From Prevotella sp. (lineage in GTDB: Bacteria > Bacteroidota > Bacteroidia > Bacteroidales > Bacteroidaceae): a stretch of DNA of 47,753 bases. Below, one piece after another: positions 10,029 to 45,092 of the stretch (within the stretch, counting starts at the first letter, position 1; every line of letters starts with the position of its first letter). The notes beneath the pieces were generated by a model, which did not search any database, had not been told where the DNA came from, and saw only the letters and a list, made by a program, of their open reading frames with translations. Location: contig JAGCNO010000103.1 in the NCBI GenBank assembly GCA_017645905.1, positions 1 to 47,753 of the forward strand, read 5' to 3'. A program made the position numbers and the translations under genes.

Positions 10029-10116
10029 GAGAAAAAGCCGTTCTTTCTATGAGAAAAAGCCGTTCTTTCCTGGAGAAAAAGCCGTTTTTTCTATGAGAAA
10101 AGATAGTCTTTTCTCC
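10029..10116. repeat. Four 22-bp tandem units after the DUF4876-type gene
   Basis: Units start at 10029, 10051, 10073 and 10095, exactly 22 bp apart, with core GAAAAAGCCGTTCTTTC. The fourth unit is a near-perfect palindrome, GAGAAAAGATAGTC then TTTTCTC. The tract fills most of the gap between the stop of the upstream operon gene (10133) and the start of the DUF6850 gene (9988). Confidence 0.85.
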
Positions 10117-14895: not shown

Positions 14896-15014
14896 GAACC
14901 GTTCTTTCTCCTGGAATAAGCCGTTCTTTCGATTCGAATAAGCCGTTCTTTCTCCTGGAAAAAGCCGTTCTTTCGATTCGAATAAGCCGTTCTTTCTATG
15001 AGCAAAAACGGCTC
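14896..15014. repeat. 22-bp tandem repeat tract between OMP and TonB-receptor genes
   Basis: Full units start at 14913, 14935, 14957 and 14979, exactly 22 bp apart, with a partial unit on each side (14896-14912 and 15001-15014). The core is AAGCCGTTCTTTC. Units alternate GATT and CCT-type ends, so the higher-order period is 44 bp. The tract lies directly 3' of the small outer-membrane protein's stop codon. Confidence 0.85.
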
Positions 15015-22722: not shown

Positions 22723-25272
22723 TTAAGTTAAAACCATTATTTCCAGATTCTCCTTGAATTCATTTTCGTTGCCTTGGTTATAGAAGGGTACACCCATTAT
22801 TGTGTACTCATCGGTATCTATTCGTACAGTTATTTTCTCTAATTGTAATTTCTTAAGAAAGTCCTCTTTCCATTTGTCTTTGCCCACAAGGTGGTTTCCT
22901 TTTGGTTCTATGAAAATCTGATACACAATATGCCTGCTATTCTTGTCACGCAAATACAGCAGGAAATCTGGCTCAAACGTTCGTCCCTGCTTATCAATGA
23001 TCTTAACCACCTTCTCATTGCGGATGATGTAGATGTCCTCGTACTTCTTTGTGAAATTCTCGTATCGCCGTGCAAAAAGGCTGATGAATGCACGCTCTTC
23101 ACTGGTGCCATAGTTGGCGTTGTAGGCATACCAGTCCTTGTCGGCAAGTTCTTCCTCCTGTCCCCTTTCGCGCTCTGGGTCTTTGGGAATTGTTATTGTC
23201 TTTGTATCAAACACATCGCGCAAATTCTTGCAGATATATGGTGACGGCTCATAGTCGGTCTTGTTGGCCTTAATCTCCCGCTCTATGCTGGCCAGCAGTC
23301 CCTGAACTGCTTGTAGGTAATCAAAATATGTCAGTCTGCTCAGTCGTTCCCTACATCCTTTGAAGGTGATTTCCAGACTGCCAAGATAATCATCGGCAGA
23401 AATGAACTCATTATAAGAGCGTAAGTTTGGACAGTATCTTCTAAGATTGTTAAAACGGAAGAACGGCACAGTGGTAAGCGCGTACCTAATAACATGATAC
23501 GGTATGTCACGAAGTTGGATGTCGTGCCCTTCGCTCGCCACCGACGTACCACTCCCCTCATTAAAAGCAAGAATGGCACTGCTTTTCAACTCATCAAGTC
23601 TATAGACATAGTTCTTTTTCTTTACGGACAGATCAGCAAGCGACTTCACCTTGTAGTATTGTTTGTCCACTTTTTCGTTATAAACAACCTTTGCCTCACG
23701 GAAGAACTTTGTCTTCTTGAAGCTCTCTTTCAGCCACAGAGTCTTTCTTACGGTGTTGTCTTCGCCAATGCCAGCTTCATTCAGTGCTTTCTTTATTTCC
23801 GACACATAGCGGCTGTCCTCCATAATATGATAATAGAGCGTCTCAAGGATGCGCAGCTCATTGCTCAGGTCTTTGTCGTACTTGCGCATATAGAGGGGCT
23901 GCCCCTCTTCTGTCCTGAAGGGGAAATACCTGGCTCCGCGTCCTATCAGTTGAGCTTCGGCTCGTGTGGTTTTGCCTATTCGTCCGTTACTCTCCTCGTT
24001 GCGGTCGTCGTACATACGGACAATGTCGAAAAGGTTCAGCACGTCCCATCCTCTGTCCAGTTTGTTCACGGCAAACACGGCGCGTATGGGGTTGTCCTCG
24101 TCTTCCAGCGAATTCAGCAGCATCTGGTTGCGCTCTTTCTCGGCATCATTGTTCGCACTGATACAGTTCTCCTCGCGGAAGTTCTCTTTTGTGCGACGCA
24201 CGATGTCTTGAGTGGTAATACCCATGCGGTCAAAGTAGTCAAAGGCTCGTTTGATAATGCCGTCTATAGCTGCGCCATTGCGCAGACAGTCAATGTCCTC
24301 TTCACGAAGCGAGTCTATCCATTGGTGGAAGCACTTCTTGTTCAATTCACTCTCAGAAATGGTTCGTTTGGCCTTAAACAGGATGACGGGCTTTAGGTTT
24401 ATGCTGTGATTGGCGGCAAGTACCTGCCGGTAGAGGTTCAGCAACAGGGCGTGCATCACACGGCTCTTCTGGTCGGCTGCTACCTTCATCAGTTCTATCT
24501 CCTTGGAGTAGCCATCATTGCGGAACTCCTTCAGGTCATATTTGAAGATGGCCTTGTCGGCATACTTCATTTCTATCTGTGGCGTTTCCAAGTCCATTGT
24601 AGCCGTAAACTCTAATAGGATATTGCCCACGTGTTGACGGTGTATGCTCTGTATGGTGTTCTCCCAGTTGCCGTCTAAGGTGTTCTCGTTGCGTGTGGCC
24701 ACGTTGAAAGCATCCGCTTCGTCGGCTAATAGTACAATTCTGCGGTTCTGAAAGTCCTCCAAACTGACGGAGTTCTCTTTTGCATTGGTCATATCGGAGT
24801 GGAGCAACTGTATGGTGGTAAACTTGATGTTTATGTTCTGCGGGTCGCTCTCGTCGAACGACTGCACCTCCTTCACCGTCACCTGCCTTTGGTCGAACAA
24901 CAACCGTTCATTGAACACATACTTCGACGAGCGGTCATTTAGGAAGTTGTCCTTTGTTTTGCGGATGACAGCATCGCTACTTACAAAGAACAGGAAGTCA
25001 CGGTAGCCTTGGGCATAAAGATAGAGCACCAGGCCAGCCATGATGTTTGTCTTGCCGCTGCCCGTGGCCATATTATATAATAAGTGGTAAGGGCGACGCT
25101 GCTTGTCAGGTCTTTGGTCACGCTCATAGAAATGCACGAACCTTGCGAAAGCATTTATCTGGTAAGGGCGCAATGCAAATTTCGGACGAAGATTCTCCAC
25201 AATGCATCTCGGCACCTCAGGCAACATCCCATAGTTGCTCAGTGTGTTGTAGTCAACGAACAAGAATGCCAT
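22723..25272 (-). CDS. res: Type III restriction enzyme, Res subunit
   Basis: The start is the ATG of MAFLFVDYNTL, 2 nt after the mod stop; the frame is open upstream inside mod but that part is not Res-like. The 849-aa protein has an SF2 helicase/translocase core with Walker A ATGSGKT at 69-75 and DEADAF as motif II, then later helicase motifs (FAVNKLDRGWDVLNLFDIV, QLIGRGARYFPF). The C-terminal nuclease segment EPDFLLYLRDKN...FIEPKGNHL carries the D-ExK residues of a PD-(D/E)XK site. With Mod it translocates along DNA with ATP and cuts unmethylated DNA when two head-to-head sites are present. It appears intact. Confidence 0.93.
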   Translation of the reverse strand: MAFLFVDYNTLSNYGMLPEVPRCIVENLRPKFALRPYQINAFARFVHFYERDQRPDKQRRPYHLLYNMATGSGKTNIMAGLVLYLYAQGYRDFLFFVSSDAVIRKTKDNFLNDRSSKYVFNERLLFDQRQVTVKEVQSFDESDPQNINIKFTTIQLLHSDMTNAKENSVSLEDFQNRRIVLLADEADAFNVATRNENTLDGNWENTIQSIHRQHVGNILLEFTATMDLETPQIEMKYADKAIFKYDLKEFRNDGYSKEIELMKVAADQKSRVMHALLLNLYRQVLAANHSINLKPVILFKAKRTISESELNKKCFHQWIDSLREEDIDCLRNGAAIDGIIKRAFDYFDRMGITTQDIVRRTKENFREENCISANNDAEKERNQMLLNSLEDEDNPIRAVFAVNKLDRGWDVLNLFDIVRMYDDRNEESNGRIGKTTRAEAQLIGRGARYFPFRTEEGQPLYMRKYDKDLSNELRILETLYYHIMEDSRYVSEIKKALNEAGIGEDNTVRKTLWLKESFKKTKFFREAKVVYNEKVDKQYYKVKSLADLSVKKKNYVYRLDELKSSAILAFNEGSGTSVASEGHDIQLRDIPYHVIRYALTTVPFFRFNNLRRYCPNLRSYNEFISADDYLGSLEITFKGCRERLSRLTYFDYLQAVQGLLASIEREIKANKTDYEPSPYICKNLRDVFDTKTITIPKDPERERGQEEELADKDWYAYNANYGTSEERAFISLFARRYENFTKKYEDIYIIRNEKVVKIIDKQGRTFEPDFLLYLRDKNSRHIVYQIFIEPKGNHLVGKDKWKEDFLKKLQLEKITVRIDTDEYTIMGVPFYNQGNENEFKENLEIMVLT

Positions 25273-25274
25273 GT

Positions 25275-27311
25275 CTAATCCTCCCCATAAAACGCTTTGG
25301 TGATTCGTTTCTCTTCCTCTGTCACTCCAGCCTCGGCATCGTCCATATCGGAGCGATTCACATAGAGCTGGTTCATGTCGAGCAATGAGCAAAGCAGTTG
25401 CTTCTGTTCTTCCAAGGTGAGTTTCTTGAAACCCTCTATGTCATCGTCCATTTTCTGCATCTCTACATTGAAGCGGAAAAATGCACGTGCTTTCATCTTT
25501 TCCCAGATGTCAATCAGACCTTCTGTATTCTGTGCTTTTTCTATATCGTCAATGAACTGCTTGTTGTAGCGTTTCAACTCCAAATAGACAAAGCTGCCGC
25601 CACCATGCCAGCCTGTCTCTGCAGAAACGCCCCTTGTATCATACTCTATGTCGTTTCCTATATGATATCCAATAACATTCTTTAGACGCTGAACGCTGTC
25701 GTTCTCACCATAGTCCATCTGTTCAATTGCAATAAAACGACGTTTGCATTTCAGCGCTACGGCGGCTGTTGTTCCACTTCCAAGATGATAGTCTAAAACC
25801 AAATCACCCTCGTTGGTTGTTAACTTCATAATGCGATGTAACAACTTCTCTGGCTTTTTACCTTTTTTGAATATGACACCGCCCTCATTGTGCAAGTCAT
25901 TAGGAAGAACGTCATCCCAGATGTCTGAGATGGGCTCGCTAAACGATTTCACTCCATCCATTTCTATAAGTCTGTCTTTAACAAACAGCATTAACTTTCC
26001 ATTCGACACATAATAAGTGGACTTACCCTCACGTTCCATTTTGTAAACAGTCGAAGGGTTAGCTATTGACCGCTGTTTCAAATCACGAGCTGCTTGACTT
26101 ATGTTTTTGTCATCTAATGTGGCGAATTGCATAACTCTATCTGCATTAGCAATGACAAAATCATTCAGTTTCTCTTCATATCTGCTTCCTAAAGCCCGTT
26201 TGAGTTTTTCCTTCGTTGTCTGTAACGAGTATGCAAAAGCATCAGCTAATGGCTCGAATGTCCAGTTCTTATACCCCTCCTCGTAATTGACAATGAACTG
26301 ATTGTAGCGGTCATCACGTCCTTTTGCTCTAAATACTCTATTAGGTTTCCATGTCGAAGAGTTTCGAGAATAAATCAGTACATAGTCGGAAAGATTCACC
26401 ACACCAGGATTAATAACCTTTGCTCCTGTTACGGAGCCTCGTTTGGCGGTGATGATGTTTTTCAAGTTCTCCTTGCCAAACACCTCGTCCATCAGCAAAA
26501 GCGCATAGCCTAACTCATTATGGTCGATGGTCATACACAACGTTCCATCTTCAGTCAGCATTTGCCTTGCAACTTCCAAACGGTTTCTCATAAAGGTCAG
26601 CCAAGTGGAATGATTGAAACGGTCGTTATATCCAAAGCCGTCGTTTCCTGTATTATAGGGTGGGTCTATGAATATCAACTTTACCTTTGCGTAAAGCTCC
26701 TTTTTGAGCGATGAAAGGACAAGCAAATTGTTACCTTTTATGAGAAAGTTATCGTTTGGATACAAAGATTCTACTTCATGTTCTCCATCCACATCGTACC
26801 GCGCAGCATTTGTCAATACCTTCGGTTCTAACAGTTGTGTTATCTCGTCCTGTGCTAACGTTTGGTTGAAGAATATTTCATTTCGCTTTTGATCTTCCTT
26901 TGTCTGTCCTCCCTCAAGGATGCAGTCCTTATAGGGGAACACCAGCTCAACCTCGTTGCGCTGGTTCATGAACCTGCCACCGATTTGTAGTCCTATCTTC
27001 TGTGAGTAGCGGGTGTAGCTGTCACTCAGATAGTTCTTCTGTTCGACGAATTGCAGGAAGGACTCCATCTTGAACACCATTGCCCCTGCTACTTCCACGA
27101 AAAAAGTGTCACGCAGTTTTTCCTCCTTCAGCAATAGGGCGATGAGCGTTGGCGAGTAGTTGCGGGCTTCCTCTGCCACTACCCACTTTTTCACTTTCCC
27201 CTCGTCTGACACGTAATTAGGTTCTTCCTTGAGCCGTTCCATCAGCAGGTCATTCAGGCGGCTGCCGCCCCGCTCTGTCGTAGTCTCGATGTTTGATTGT
27301 CCGTTTGCCAT
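25275..27311 (-). CDS. mod: Type III DNA methyltransferase, Mod subunit (N6-adenine)
   Basis: The 678-aa beta-class methyltransferase has the catalytic DPPYNTG at 216-222 followed, about 310 residues later, by the SAM-binding LDYHLGSGTTAAVALKCKR. The target-recognition region lies between the two, as usual in Mod. It methylates one strand of a short asymmetric site, protects the host and gives Res its specificity; the site cannot be read from sequence. An extended N-terminal region (1-180) resembles that of other Mod proteins. No simple-sequence repeat that would suggest phase variation was seen. The start is 311 nt downstream of a TATCTTTG box, with a structured inverted repeat in between. 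Confidence 0.93.
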   Translation of the reverse strand: MANGQSNIETTTERGGSRLNDLLMERLKEEPNYVSDEGKVKKWVVAEEARNYSPTLIALLLKEEKLRDTFFVEVAGAMVFKMESFLQFVEQKNYLSDSYTRYSQKIGLQIGGRFMNQRNEVELVFPYKDCILEGGQTKEDQKRNEIFFNQTLAQDEITQLLEPKVLTNAARYDVDGEHEVESLYPNDNFLIKGNNLLVLSSLKKELYAKVKLIFIDPPYNTGNDGFGYNDRFNHSTWLTFMRNRLEVARQMLTEDGTLCMTIDHNELGYALLLMDEVFGKENLKNIITAKRGSVTGAKVINPGVVNLSDYVLIYSRNSSTWKPNRVFRAKGRDDRYNQFIVNYEEGYKNWTFEPLADAFAYSLQTTKEKLKRALGSRYEEKLNDFVIANADRVMQFATLDDKNISQAARDLKQRSIANPSTVYKMEREGKSTYYVSNGKLMLFVKDRLIEMDGVKSFSEPISDIWDDVLPNDLHNEGGVIFKKGKKPEKLLHRIMKLTTNEGDLVLDYHLGSGTTAAVALKCKRRFIAIEQMDYGENDSVQRLKNVIGYHIGNDIEYDTRGVSAETGWHGGGSFVYLELKRYNKQFIDDIEKAQNTEGLIDIWEKMKARAFFRFNVEMQKMDDDIEGFKKLTLEEQKQLLCSLLDMNQLYVNRSDMDDAEAGVTEEEKRITKAFYGED

Positions 27312-27628: not shown

Positions 27629-27869
27629 CACAAAAAAGAATTAATACCGTTCTCCTTCGGCAAAAATCTGCGAAAAAAAACCATTATTTAACCGTTTTTG
27701 AGGATTATGCGGGCGGAACGGCTGGGATGAGTGGTTGAGACGAAACGTATAGATTAATTTCGCCAGAGGGTATCTGCAATAACGAACCTTAGTTCTGAAG
27801 GTGAGAAAGAGCCGTTTAAAGGCAGGTTTTAAACGTACCTTTAATAGGGAAAGGATAGGGGTGTTGTTG

Positions 27870-27949
27870 AAACTACGTCGTGGTTTATAGAAACTACGTC
27901 GTAGTTTGTACAAACGTCGTCGTGGTTTGTTAAAACGTCGTCGACGTTT
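27870..27949. promoter_or_regulatory. Array of four 17-bp palindromic operators, 21-bp spacing
   Basis: Near-palindromes AAACTACGTCGTGGTTT, AAACTACGTCGTAGTTT, AAACGTCGTCGTGGTTT and AAACGTCGTCGACGTTT start at 27870, 27891, 27912 and 27933, exactly 21 bp (two helical turns) apart. The second and fourth are essentially self-complementary. The last overlaps the -33 box of the HU-HIG promoter, so a protein bound there should block RNA polymerase. Cooperative binding along one DNA face is the natural reading. The HU-HIG protein is the obvious candidate ligand, which is inference. Confidence 0.8.
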
Positions 27950-27978
27950 TGACTTTTTCAAAAAAATGAGTACCTTTG
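27948..27978 (+). promoter_or_regulatory. Promoter of the HU-HIG gene
   Basis: TTTG at 27948-27951 and TACCTTTG at 27971-27978 with a 19-bp spacer. Predicted leader of about 58 nt before the ATG at 28043. Confidence 0.85.
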
Positions 27979-28042: not shown

Positions 28043-28669
28043 ATGAATGCAAAGTATGTGAAGAAGGAGATTGCCGACCTGAACGGCACTGGCCGCACGC
28101 AGGCCTACTACAAGATGCAGACCACGCCGATGAGCTATGATGAGTTTGTCGATATGTGCTGCCGCGAAGGAGCCATGAGTCGCGATGCTATCAAGGGCGT
28201 GCTCACCCTGGTTGCCGAGAAGATGGCACTGTCGATGGCCGAGGGTCACTCGGTGAAGATTGGCGGCATCGGCACGTTCTCGGCCAAGCTGGGCGTGCGC
28301 AGCGACCTGCTGCCCGATGCTTTCGAGCCGGGCGAGCACCGCCACTATGCTGGTGCCGTCGAGGTGAAGGGTGTGTCGTACAGGGCAGATAATGACCTTG
28401 TGGCCAGCTGTGCTGACAAGTGCCACCTGGAGAGCGGCGGCGTGAGCCGTCTGAAAAAACCTAAGACATCGTTGGAGGAACGCGCGGAGATGGCGCGTCA
28501 GTATCTGCGTAAACACCCGCTGATGCGCGTGGCCGACTATGCCATGCTGACGAAACAGTCGCACACCTCGGCGGGCACCGAGCTTCGACGCCTTGCCGCC
28601 AACCCCTCGACGGGCATTACTTTTACCGGCAGCGGCAGTCATAAGTACTATATCCTCAGCAGGAAATAG
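28043..28669 (+). CDS. HU-HIG family DNA-binding protein with C-terminal winged helix
   Basis: In this 208-aa protein residues 1-125 are an HU/IHF-like domain (MNAKYVKKEIADLNGTGRTQAYYKMQ is not HU core, but DEFVDMCCREGAMSRDAIKGVLTLVAEKM and GHSVKIGGIGTFSAKLG are the HU helices and beta arm start). The C-terminal part (about 148-208, EERAEMARQYLRKHPLMRVADYAMLTKQSHTSAGTELRRL) looks like a winged HTH. This matches the Bacteroidota HU-HIG class (HU fused to wHTH). Such proteins bind DNA; their cellular roles are little known. The gene stands alone, with four palindromic operators at its promoter that point to autoregulation. Confidence 0.75.
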   Translation: MNAKYVKKEIADLNGTGRTQAYYKMQTTPMSYDEFVDMCCREGAMSRDAIKGVLTLVAEKMALSMAEGHSVKIGGIGTFSAKLGVRSDLLPDAFEPGEHRHYAGAVEVKGVSYRADNDLVASCADKCHLESGGVSRLKKPKTSLEERAEMARQYLRKHPLMRVADYAMLTKQSHTSAGTELRRLAANPSTGITFTGSGSHKYYILSRK

Positions 28670-34771: not shown

Positions 34772-34779
34772 CTTGATTA

Positions 34780-34863
34780 GTTGAGAGTTTAGTGTTTAGA
34801 GTTGAGGGTTTAGGGTTTAGAGTTGAGAGTTAAGTGTTGAGAGTTTAGAGTTGATAGTTTAGA
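34780..34863. repeat. Twelve 7-bp tandem repeats in an mRNA leader
   Basis: Twelve consecutive heptads of the form GTTKAGN or GTTNAGN (GTTGAGA, GTTTAGT, GTTTAGA, GTTGAGG and so on) run without break. They sit between a minus-strand TATCTTTG box (34876-34869) and the oxidoreductase ATG (34771), so the transcript leader would consist of their complement (CTCAACT/CTAAACT type). Confidence 0.9.
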
Positions 34864-35916: not shown

Positions 35917-36088
35917 GAAAGCCGTTCCGACTGTGAGAAAGAACTATCTTTTCTCATAGAAAGAACGGCTTATTCCCATAGAAAGAACGGCTTTTTCTTG
36001 TAAATTCTCGAGAGAATTGACGAGAAAGAACGGTTTGTTCTAATCGTAAGAACGGCTTATTCTGGTAGAAAGAATGGCTTTTCCTCAG
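35917..36088. repeat. 22-bp repeat tract between convergent metF and ketosynthase genes
   Basis: Units start at 35936, 35958, 35980, 36002 (a 21-bp unit that is mostly the palindrome AATTCTCGAGAGAATT), 36023, 36045 and 36067, after a partial unit at 35917. The core is AGAAAGAACGGCTTTTTC. The same AATTCTCGAGAGAATT palindrome is embedded in the hairpin at 112-171. The tract fills the whole gap from the metF stop to a 19-bp palindrome at 36089-36107 that contains the ketosynthase stop codon. Confidence 0.88.
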
Positions 36089-44987: not shown

Positions 44988-45026
44988 ATCACCCGTAATG
45001 TGGCTTTGATTCACATTACGGGTGAT
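44988..45026 (-). terminator. Terminator of the leucine-rich-repeat gene
   Basis: Perfect 15-bp arms ATCACCCGTAATGTG (44988-45002) and CACATTACGGGTGAT (45012-45026) with a 9-nt loop. On the minus strand the stem is followed by TTTTCCTTTTT. The right arm is the first unit of a four-fold 22-bp repeat. Confidence 0.82.
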
Positions 45027-45092
45027 GGGCAATCACATTACGGGTGATGACAACTCATATTACGGGTGATGCCCCTTCATATTACGGACGAT
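45011..45092. repeat. Four 22-bp repeats of a terminator arm
   Basis: Units start at 45011, 45033, 45055 and 45077 (core CATTACGGGTGATG), an exact 22-bp period, and run up to the stop codon of the leucine-rich-repeat gene. Each of the first three units can pair with the single opposite arm at 44988-45002. Confidence 0.88.

Follow-up and report, generated by a model that had tools for sequence, protein, structure and literature searches.

A 21-bp-period palindromic array as candidate self-operator of an HU-HIG gene in Prevotella

We asked which protein would bind a conspicuous array of palindromes in front of an HU-HIG gene of Prevotella sp., and why copies of this array recur elsewhere in the same genome. 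The window, i.e., the whole stretch analyzed (47,753 nucleotides, contig JAGCNO010000103.1), belongs to a metagenome-assembled genome (MAG) of 3.4 Mb in 181 contigs (87.5% complete, 5.58% estimated contamination). HU-HIG is said to have been defined in a 2017 paper by Burroughs and colleagues, which reportedly predicted that the family acts in chromosome partition and in defense against invading DNA. The gene (28043..28669, forward strand) encodes 208 amino acids, with an HU body at approximately residues 30–124 and a winged helix at approximately residues 142–208 (Pfam, AlphaFold2, and structure comparison). It therefore has one of the domain fusions named for HU-HIG, an HU fold fused to a winged helix, and the predicted structure is consistent with both parts. 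The protein passed the gathering score of PF18291 (E = 2.3e-12, 47.5 vs. 26.2 bits) and scored below the cut-off of the NCBIfam model TIGR01201 (HU_rel; 58.1 vs. 68.6 bits). HU-HIG genes abound in the genus: PF18291, a profile that matches canonical HU as well, had matches at E 0.001 in all 100 genomes searched, with a maximum of 38 per genome. A literature search at the level of abstracts returned no DNA target described for HU-HIG, PF18291, or TIGR01201 proteins, and the part of PMC5771137 that was covered holds nothing bearing on DNA targets of the HU-HIG family.

Four 17-bp near-palindromes of the AAACnnCGnCGnnGTTT type occupy positions 27870–27949 of the forward strand, their starts spaced exactly 21 bp apart: AAACTACGTCGTGGTTT (unit 1, 27870..27886), AAACTACGTCGTAGTTT (unit 2, 27891..27907), AAACGTCGTCGTGGTTT (unit 3, 27912..27928), and AAACGTCGTCGACGTTT (unit 4, 27933..27949). 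The final bases of unit 4 lie within a -33 box, TTTG (27948..27951), a layout repeated in orthologues, and 19 bp separate this box from a -7 box, TACCTTTG (27971..27978), which begins 21 bp past the array end; we take TTTG and TACCTTTG to form a Bacteroidota-type promoter. The stretch TGACTTTTTC (27950..27959, forward strand) holds a T-run that is common to most HU-HIG promoters and most of the dispersed copies described below. The three-unit repeat score peaked at period 21 (z = 9.6, 350 bp vs. 60 dinucleotide shuffles). The array thus lies on the predicted promoter of the gene, with unit 4 overlapping the -33 box, as is expected of an autoregulated operator. The first-pass annotation had described the four near-palindromes at 27870, 27891, 27912, and 27933, their exact spacing, the fourth on the -33 box, and the next box 19 bp on, all of which the sequence confirms; it lacked two features, a second array of 22-bp direct repeats on the distal side and the presence of the double array, minus the -7 box, at 16 other places of this genome. 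The distal repeats are clear upstream of the palindromes in orthologues (e.g., GAGAGGTACGGGGTAAAGGGTG in L285), where lag-22 self-similarity was 0.46 over 38 promoters vs. 0.23–0.30 at other lags from 14 to 40; in the window, positions 27800..27869 (forward strand, by eye) probably hold a weak, degenerate counterpart. Beside the HU-HIG gene, on its upstream side, stands a type III restriction-modification pair (res and mod, 22723–27311, reverse strand), and the neighbors scanned downstream include an anaerobic nucleotide reductase.

If the array serves the gene behind it, it should accompany that gene in relatives. We assembled 40 orthologue loci by a contig scan with an alignment of five kin (no relative was found when the contig scan used a single protein as query). 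Nearly all records are Prevotella or Prevotellaceae MAGs, many of rumen or stomach origin according to sample titles, and duplicate records are present (L273 = L002, L289 = L003, L311 = L015). A 4x21 array precedes the HU-HIG gene in 38 of the 40 loci, starting 127–217 bp before the start codon, so that the array does recur where the first-pass annotation had proposed to look for it. The 4x21 score carries no shuffle control, though all 38 promoters reached a z of at least 5.6 when scanned for period; the weakest array of the 38 is L311 (score 94). In one exception, L298, an IS110-like gene (by eye) separates the HU-HIG frame, which contains a stop, from an array 1.7 kb upstream; in the other, L290, no array was found. 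Over 576 kb of orthologue loci, 42 of the 53 arrays of period 19–25 (42 of 59 when all periods are counted) fall within 320 bp before HU-HIG, in zones that make up ~2% of that sequence, some promoters being counted twice for both of their arrays.

The distance to the promoter is likewise fixed. We used 40 promoters, namely those of the 38 loci, the window gene, and the paralogue L016, with L290 and L298 omitted. Counted from the array end, the start of the -7 box (TAnnTTTG) is at 22 bp in 26 promoters, at 21 bp in eight, and at 23 bp in three (37/40 together); two of the remaining three have it at 43 bp, one further 21-bp step, and one has matches at 15 and 43 bp. This fixed distance brings unit 4 onto the -33 box in almost every promoter. 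Upstream of HU-HIG at L018 and L019, the array lies downstream of a TAnnTTTG box, on the gene-ward side, opposite to the order in the window clade.

A self-binding protein should also change together with its site. In the same 40 promoters the unit center is GnC in 156 of 160 units, and the outer bases differ between species, with outer half-site classes (by protein) of AAAC in 20, AATC or ATTC in 12, and AAAT in eight. The protein columns most associated with half-site class were residues 8, 178, 179, and 187; residue 8, which ranked top by z, is outside the helix, and residues 178 and 179 are inside helix 174–186, the third helix of the winged-helix part in the AlphaFold2 model and the predicted recognition helix (codons 28562..28600, forward strand). 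With residue groups defined after inspecting the data, S178 with M, I, or L179 was found in 11/12 proteins of the T-C class (AATC or ATTC) and in 0/28 others, and T178 with K, V, I, or R179 in 7/8 proteins of the A-T class (AAAT) and in 0/32 others. A partial Mantel test on 34 proteins (six of the 40 dropped as near-identical) related helix to operator given the HU part (r = 0.29, P = 0.003), and the HU part correlated with the operator equally (partial r = 0.31, P = 0.0045). On a tree of the HU part alone, half-site class changed nine times vs. a shuffled mean of 17.2, i.e., the classes are clustered on the tree, and independent pairs for the link between helix and class numbered one on well-supported branches and four to five on the best tree, too few for significance. 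The data suggest that half-site sequence goes with residues 178/179, shared phylogeny being an alternative source of the association, and that each such protein may have its own DNA address and control itself there.

We further looked for arrays (period 20–24, z > 5) at other HU-HIG-type genes. Our sample of 140 genes comprised nearly all matches of the genomes G063, G098, G003, and G078 and the best-scoring 30 from the 100-genome search, some window-protein matches being left out (L008, L014, and L029 among them); without 12 canonical HU genes and nine genes that were dropped (three masked, four fragments or truncated, two long or multi-domain), 119 remained. An array was found in 63/119 HU-HIG-type promoters (48/94 non-redundant) and, by this criterion, none in 56/119, vs. 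0/12 canonical HU genes and 4/51 ordinary promoters taken from 140 kb of two relatives; among these four, one is weak, one stands before an IS21-like gene (by eye), and two are members of a family dispersed in their genome. The proportion of promoters with an array was 10/12 in G098, 8/11 in G078, 16/26 in G003, 5/6 in G058, 4/18 in G063, and 2/6 in the window's own genome, and among genes of 171–195 amino acids it was 1/14. Periods were 21, 22, or 23 with a few values between, and unit sequences vary between protein groups. Only 26 of 61 arrays passed a dyad test at 0.05, so that many, by this test, are direct rather than inverted repeats. In G003, the motif of three other HU-type genes lay at their own promoters in 12/13 matches (both strands counted). 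In G058, which belongs to another family, 400 kb of contigs known to hold HU-HIG genes contained seven arrays of period 19–25, of which five precede HU-HIG genes (one by resemblance only), one precedes an HU-HIG remnant, and one is elsewhere.

The array is not confined to promoters. In the own genome the unit pattern matched 72 times in forward and 69 times in reverse orientation, vs. two and zero times for a reversed-pattern control, and the 17 arrays examined there, the window included, all consist of four units at exactly 21 bp (one with a doubtful fifth). Sixteen of them are solo arrays away from any HU-HIG gene. The first-pass annotation had held that an array missing from orthologues and common in unrelated spacers would refute its reading; the array is kept at orthologues, yet it also stands in 16 other spacers of its own genome. 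Kin yielded 20 further arrays (four units in 18, three in one, five in one). The 16 solo copies and 19 kin arrays keep the distal 22-bp repeats (lag-22 self-similarity by genome, solo and kin copies, mean 0.41–0.56 vs. 0.23–0.26 at other lags), and a -7 box at 20–24 bp is present in 2/35 of these dispersed copies. None of the 16 solo copies of the own genome has a -7 box at the HU-HIG-promoter position, so autorepression alone does not account for them. By crude gene calls, the settings of 38 arrays are 10 convergent, 20 tandem, five divergent, and three at contig edges; 4/16 solo arrays of the own genome lie between convergent genes, and at least those in a convergent setting are thus not promoters of a neighbor.

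We searched 60 genomes with a triple pattern, which fits the AAA...TTT class only, so that genomes of other half-site classes are outside its reach. Matches numbered 36 in G000, 20 in G022, 10 in G031, six in G018, two in G032 (one array), and three weak ones in G045, with none in the other 54 genomes and zero for the control in every genome. Since the 36 matches equal 17 x 2 + 2, the paralogue at C124:6003 appears limited to its own promoter array. Window-protein matches of at least 54% identity occurred in exactly G000, G022, G031, and G018 (a fragment in G022); among the 60 genomes, such arrays were therefore found chiefly in those in which close kin of the protein had been detected. One dispersed site was found to be common to two genomes: in both G000 and G022 it lies between an ABC ATPase gene and a gene resembling one for a membrane protein. 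In G032, where no HU-HIG match of this kind was found, these genes adjoin directly with nothing inserted; the junction operator may have been gained twice, or gained once and then lost. G032 also has an array with a promoter and no HU-HIG gene behind it. Two dispersed copies in kin, L258 (G022) and L264 (G031), have a -7 box before other genes, possibly regulated ones, and the product of one of these resembles a cysteine desulfurase in its first residues. Pfam searches on 10 neighboring genes of copies revealed no clear theme (three have a dockerin domain), and a regulon defined by function was dropped for want of one. On each of four contigs (C30, C89, C124, C138), a pair of 4x21 arrays is separated by 7 to 40 kb and has a common orientation, which may be chance with four pairs or polarity along the chromosome. 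The dispersed copies may be architecture sites, relics of duplicated control regions, or a mobile repeat; relics are considered because G058 has an array before an HU-HIG remnant and G032 an array and promoter without an HU-HIG gene.

Other repeat families share these genomes. A hyperabundant, near-palindromic 22-bp family, GAAAGAACGGCTTTTTC, occurs in the window at 10029–10088, 14914–14973, and 35929–36085 (a variant at 197–256) and adjoins 4x21 copies in several places; it gave 360 and 333 tandem-pair matches in the own genome and none in 59 relatives. The HU-HIG gene L032 (C130:33289) was considered as its partner, having two similar units in its promoter, and was rejected because the seven kin promoters examined show no such array and the family itself gave no match in the 59 relatives. 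The window also has an array of TCACATTACGGGTGATG with a period of 22 bp (45011–45070) and a low-complexity repeat with a period of 21 bp (34779–34836). G098 has a 22-bp family of its own, AAAAGCTAAGA... (L154:4031, 19003; L155:241, 11224, 19046), with 241 and 192 tandem-pair matches there and none in five other genomes searched.

The units themselves indicate what is constrained. Over the 68 units of the 17 own-genome arrays, nine positions are invariant and three more are identical in 67. The first-pass annotation had taken joint change of the two arms as a sign of selection on the dyad; the arms do match in units 2 and 4, but over the 68 units matched arms are not commoner than expected (12 observed vs. 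17.8 ± 3.3), which rules them out as evidence for a dyad. Arms facing each other across the 4-bp spacer were identical in 1/51 cases vs. 10.9 ± 2.5 in position-wise shuffles (0/5000 as low), and in 0/60 vs. 3.7 ± 1.8 in kin. Identical facing arms are thus avoided, which argues against paired RNA, for which the opposite is expected; the constraint looks like protein contact together with avoidance of perfect inverted repeats.

We consider it probable that the HU-HIG protein has its self-operator in this array, which it would bind to repress its own gene. The conserved place, the fixed promoter distance, and the linked change of protein and site make self-binding the best reading, and we infer repression because the array overlaps the -33 box. 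The first-pass annotation had also favored a self-binding repressor; the orthologue arrays, the constant -7 distance, and the link between half-site and helix are what such a repressor predicts, and the 16 solo copies are the part that autorepression alone leaves unexplained. In the mechanism we propose, an HU-HIG dimer would bind each 17-bp palindrome, the HU body dimerizing and bending DNA and the C-terminal winged helix reading bases. Four dimers at 21 bp, or two helical turns, would lie on one DNA face and bind cooperatively, and the dimer on unit 4 would cover the -33 box, repressing the gene once protein is sufficient. The upstream 22-bp direct repeats probably serve to extend this complex, or else are contacted by another surface of the HU-HIG protein. 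Residues 178/179 of the recognition helix would read the outer half-site, so that protein and operators could drift together and each paralogue keep its own address. In the own genome and a few with close kin, the whole control region minus the -7 box is also present in other spacers; the same protein should bind these copies, and may there help to organize the nucleoid or, in a few places, control a gene.

Four other explanations were weighed against this self-operator. Another regulator might bind the arrays, HU-HIG being merely one of its targets, as could be read from the 16 own-genome arrays not beside HU-HIG and from the two kin copies (L258 and L264) that keep a -7 box before other genes. 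We regard this as unlikely, given that the array precedes HU-HIG in 38/40 loci, that 42/53 arrays of period 19–25 in the 576 kb lie within 320 bp before HU-HIG, that half-site class goes with HU-HIG helix residues, and that the arrays of other HU-HIG-type genes differ in sequence. The dispersed copies might instead be a mobile or selfish repeat (REP/MITE-like), one of which came to sit in the HU-HIG promoter. They do share a layout of ~170 bp (distal 22-bp repeats, an AAAGTTA-like junction, 4x21, and mostly the T-run), the operon junction without insert in G032 carries an array in G000 and G022, and the 10 neighboring genes lack an obvious theme, though three have a dockerin domain. The promoter copy looks older, however, because orthologues keep it and only one dispersed site was found shared between genomes; moreover, nine invariant positions and three that vary in one unit each, next to arms and center that vary freely, are what one would expect from protein contacts and not from neutral decay. 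A mobile origin is accordingly very unlikely in our judgment.

That the array acts as RNA, through leader hairpins or a terminator, we hold to be highly improbable: inverted-repeat units followed by a T-run, and the arrays downstream of a TAnnTTTG box in L018 and L019, would fit it, but the array is upstream of the -7 box in the window clade, spacer-facing arms avoid complementarity in the own genome (1/51) and in kin (0/60), and the two Rfam matches are both far below gathering scores. Repeats of 20–23 bp are likewise a feature of IS21-, Tn7-, or Mu-like ends, and a transposon end could be seen in 23–24-bp arrays near both sides of an IS21-like gene (by eye) in G063 (L152:14267, 16762) and in the four own-genome contigs that each hold a pair of 4x21 arrays separated by 7 to 40 kb. 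The window array, however, is coupled to a promoter and gene, a layout that dozens of loci preserve, and the paired arrays on the four contigs point the same way round, unlike inverted ends, which leaves this explanation with hardly any probability.

Beyond the self-operator, we raise tentatively, and with more doubt than belief, that HU-HIG proteins are addressable nucleoid proteins: each paralogue would have a private palindrome, read by its winged helix, would be kept at a low level by its own-promoter array and, in some lineages, would wrap or bring together private dispersed bipartite arrays, giving several independent DNA-address systems per genome. The arrays provide each HU-HIG protein with a site at which binding can be tested, a candidate specificity code of two residues, and a genome map of places to look for it; if the dispersed copies are bound, chromosome layout would make use of the HU fold in a sequence-specific way.

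Several known systems resemble parts of this arrangement. Iteron plasmid replicons have winged-helix Rep proteins, repeats of ~17–22 bp, and autorepression. By analogy, the present arrays have repeats at about two helical turns, direct repeats as well as palindromes, and a winged-helix protein that is likely self-repressing, but the protein belongs to the HU superfamily, the setting is chromosomal, and no replication function was seen. The plasmid centromere-operators ParR/parC likewise place a site array in the promoter of the presumed binding protein, whereas no partner NTPase occurs among the neighbors scanned here. As in REP/BIME elements, palindromic arrays are dispersed in intergenic spacers (16 solo arrays in the own genome); unlike them, they have four units at 21 bp and are associated with a protein gene, the half-site varying with residues in the helix of that protein. 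The HU body is shared with IHF/HU, which have no winged helix, HU being moreover not known to be sequence-specific, and canonical HU genes, in contrast to HU-HIG promoters, have no array (0/12). The HU-HIG family (PF18291), for which the literature searched describes no DNA target, is here assigned a candidate operator.
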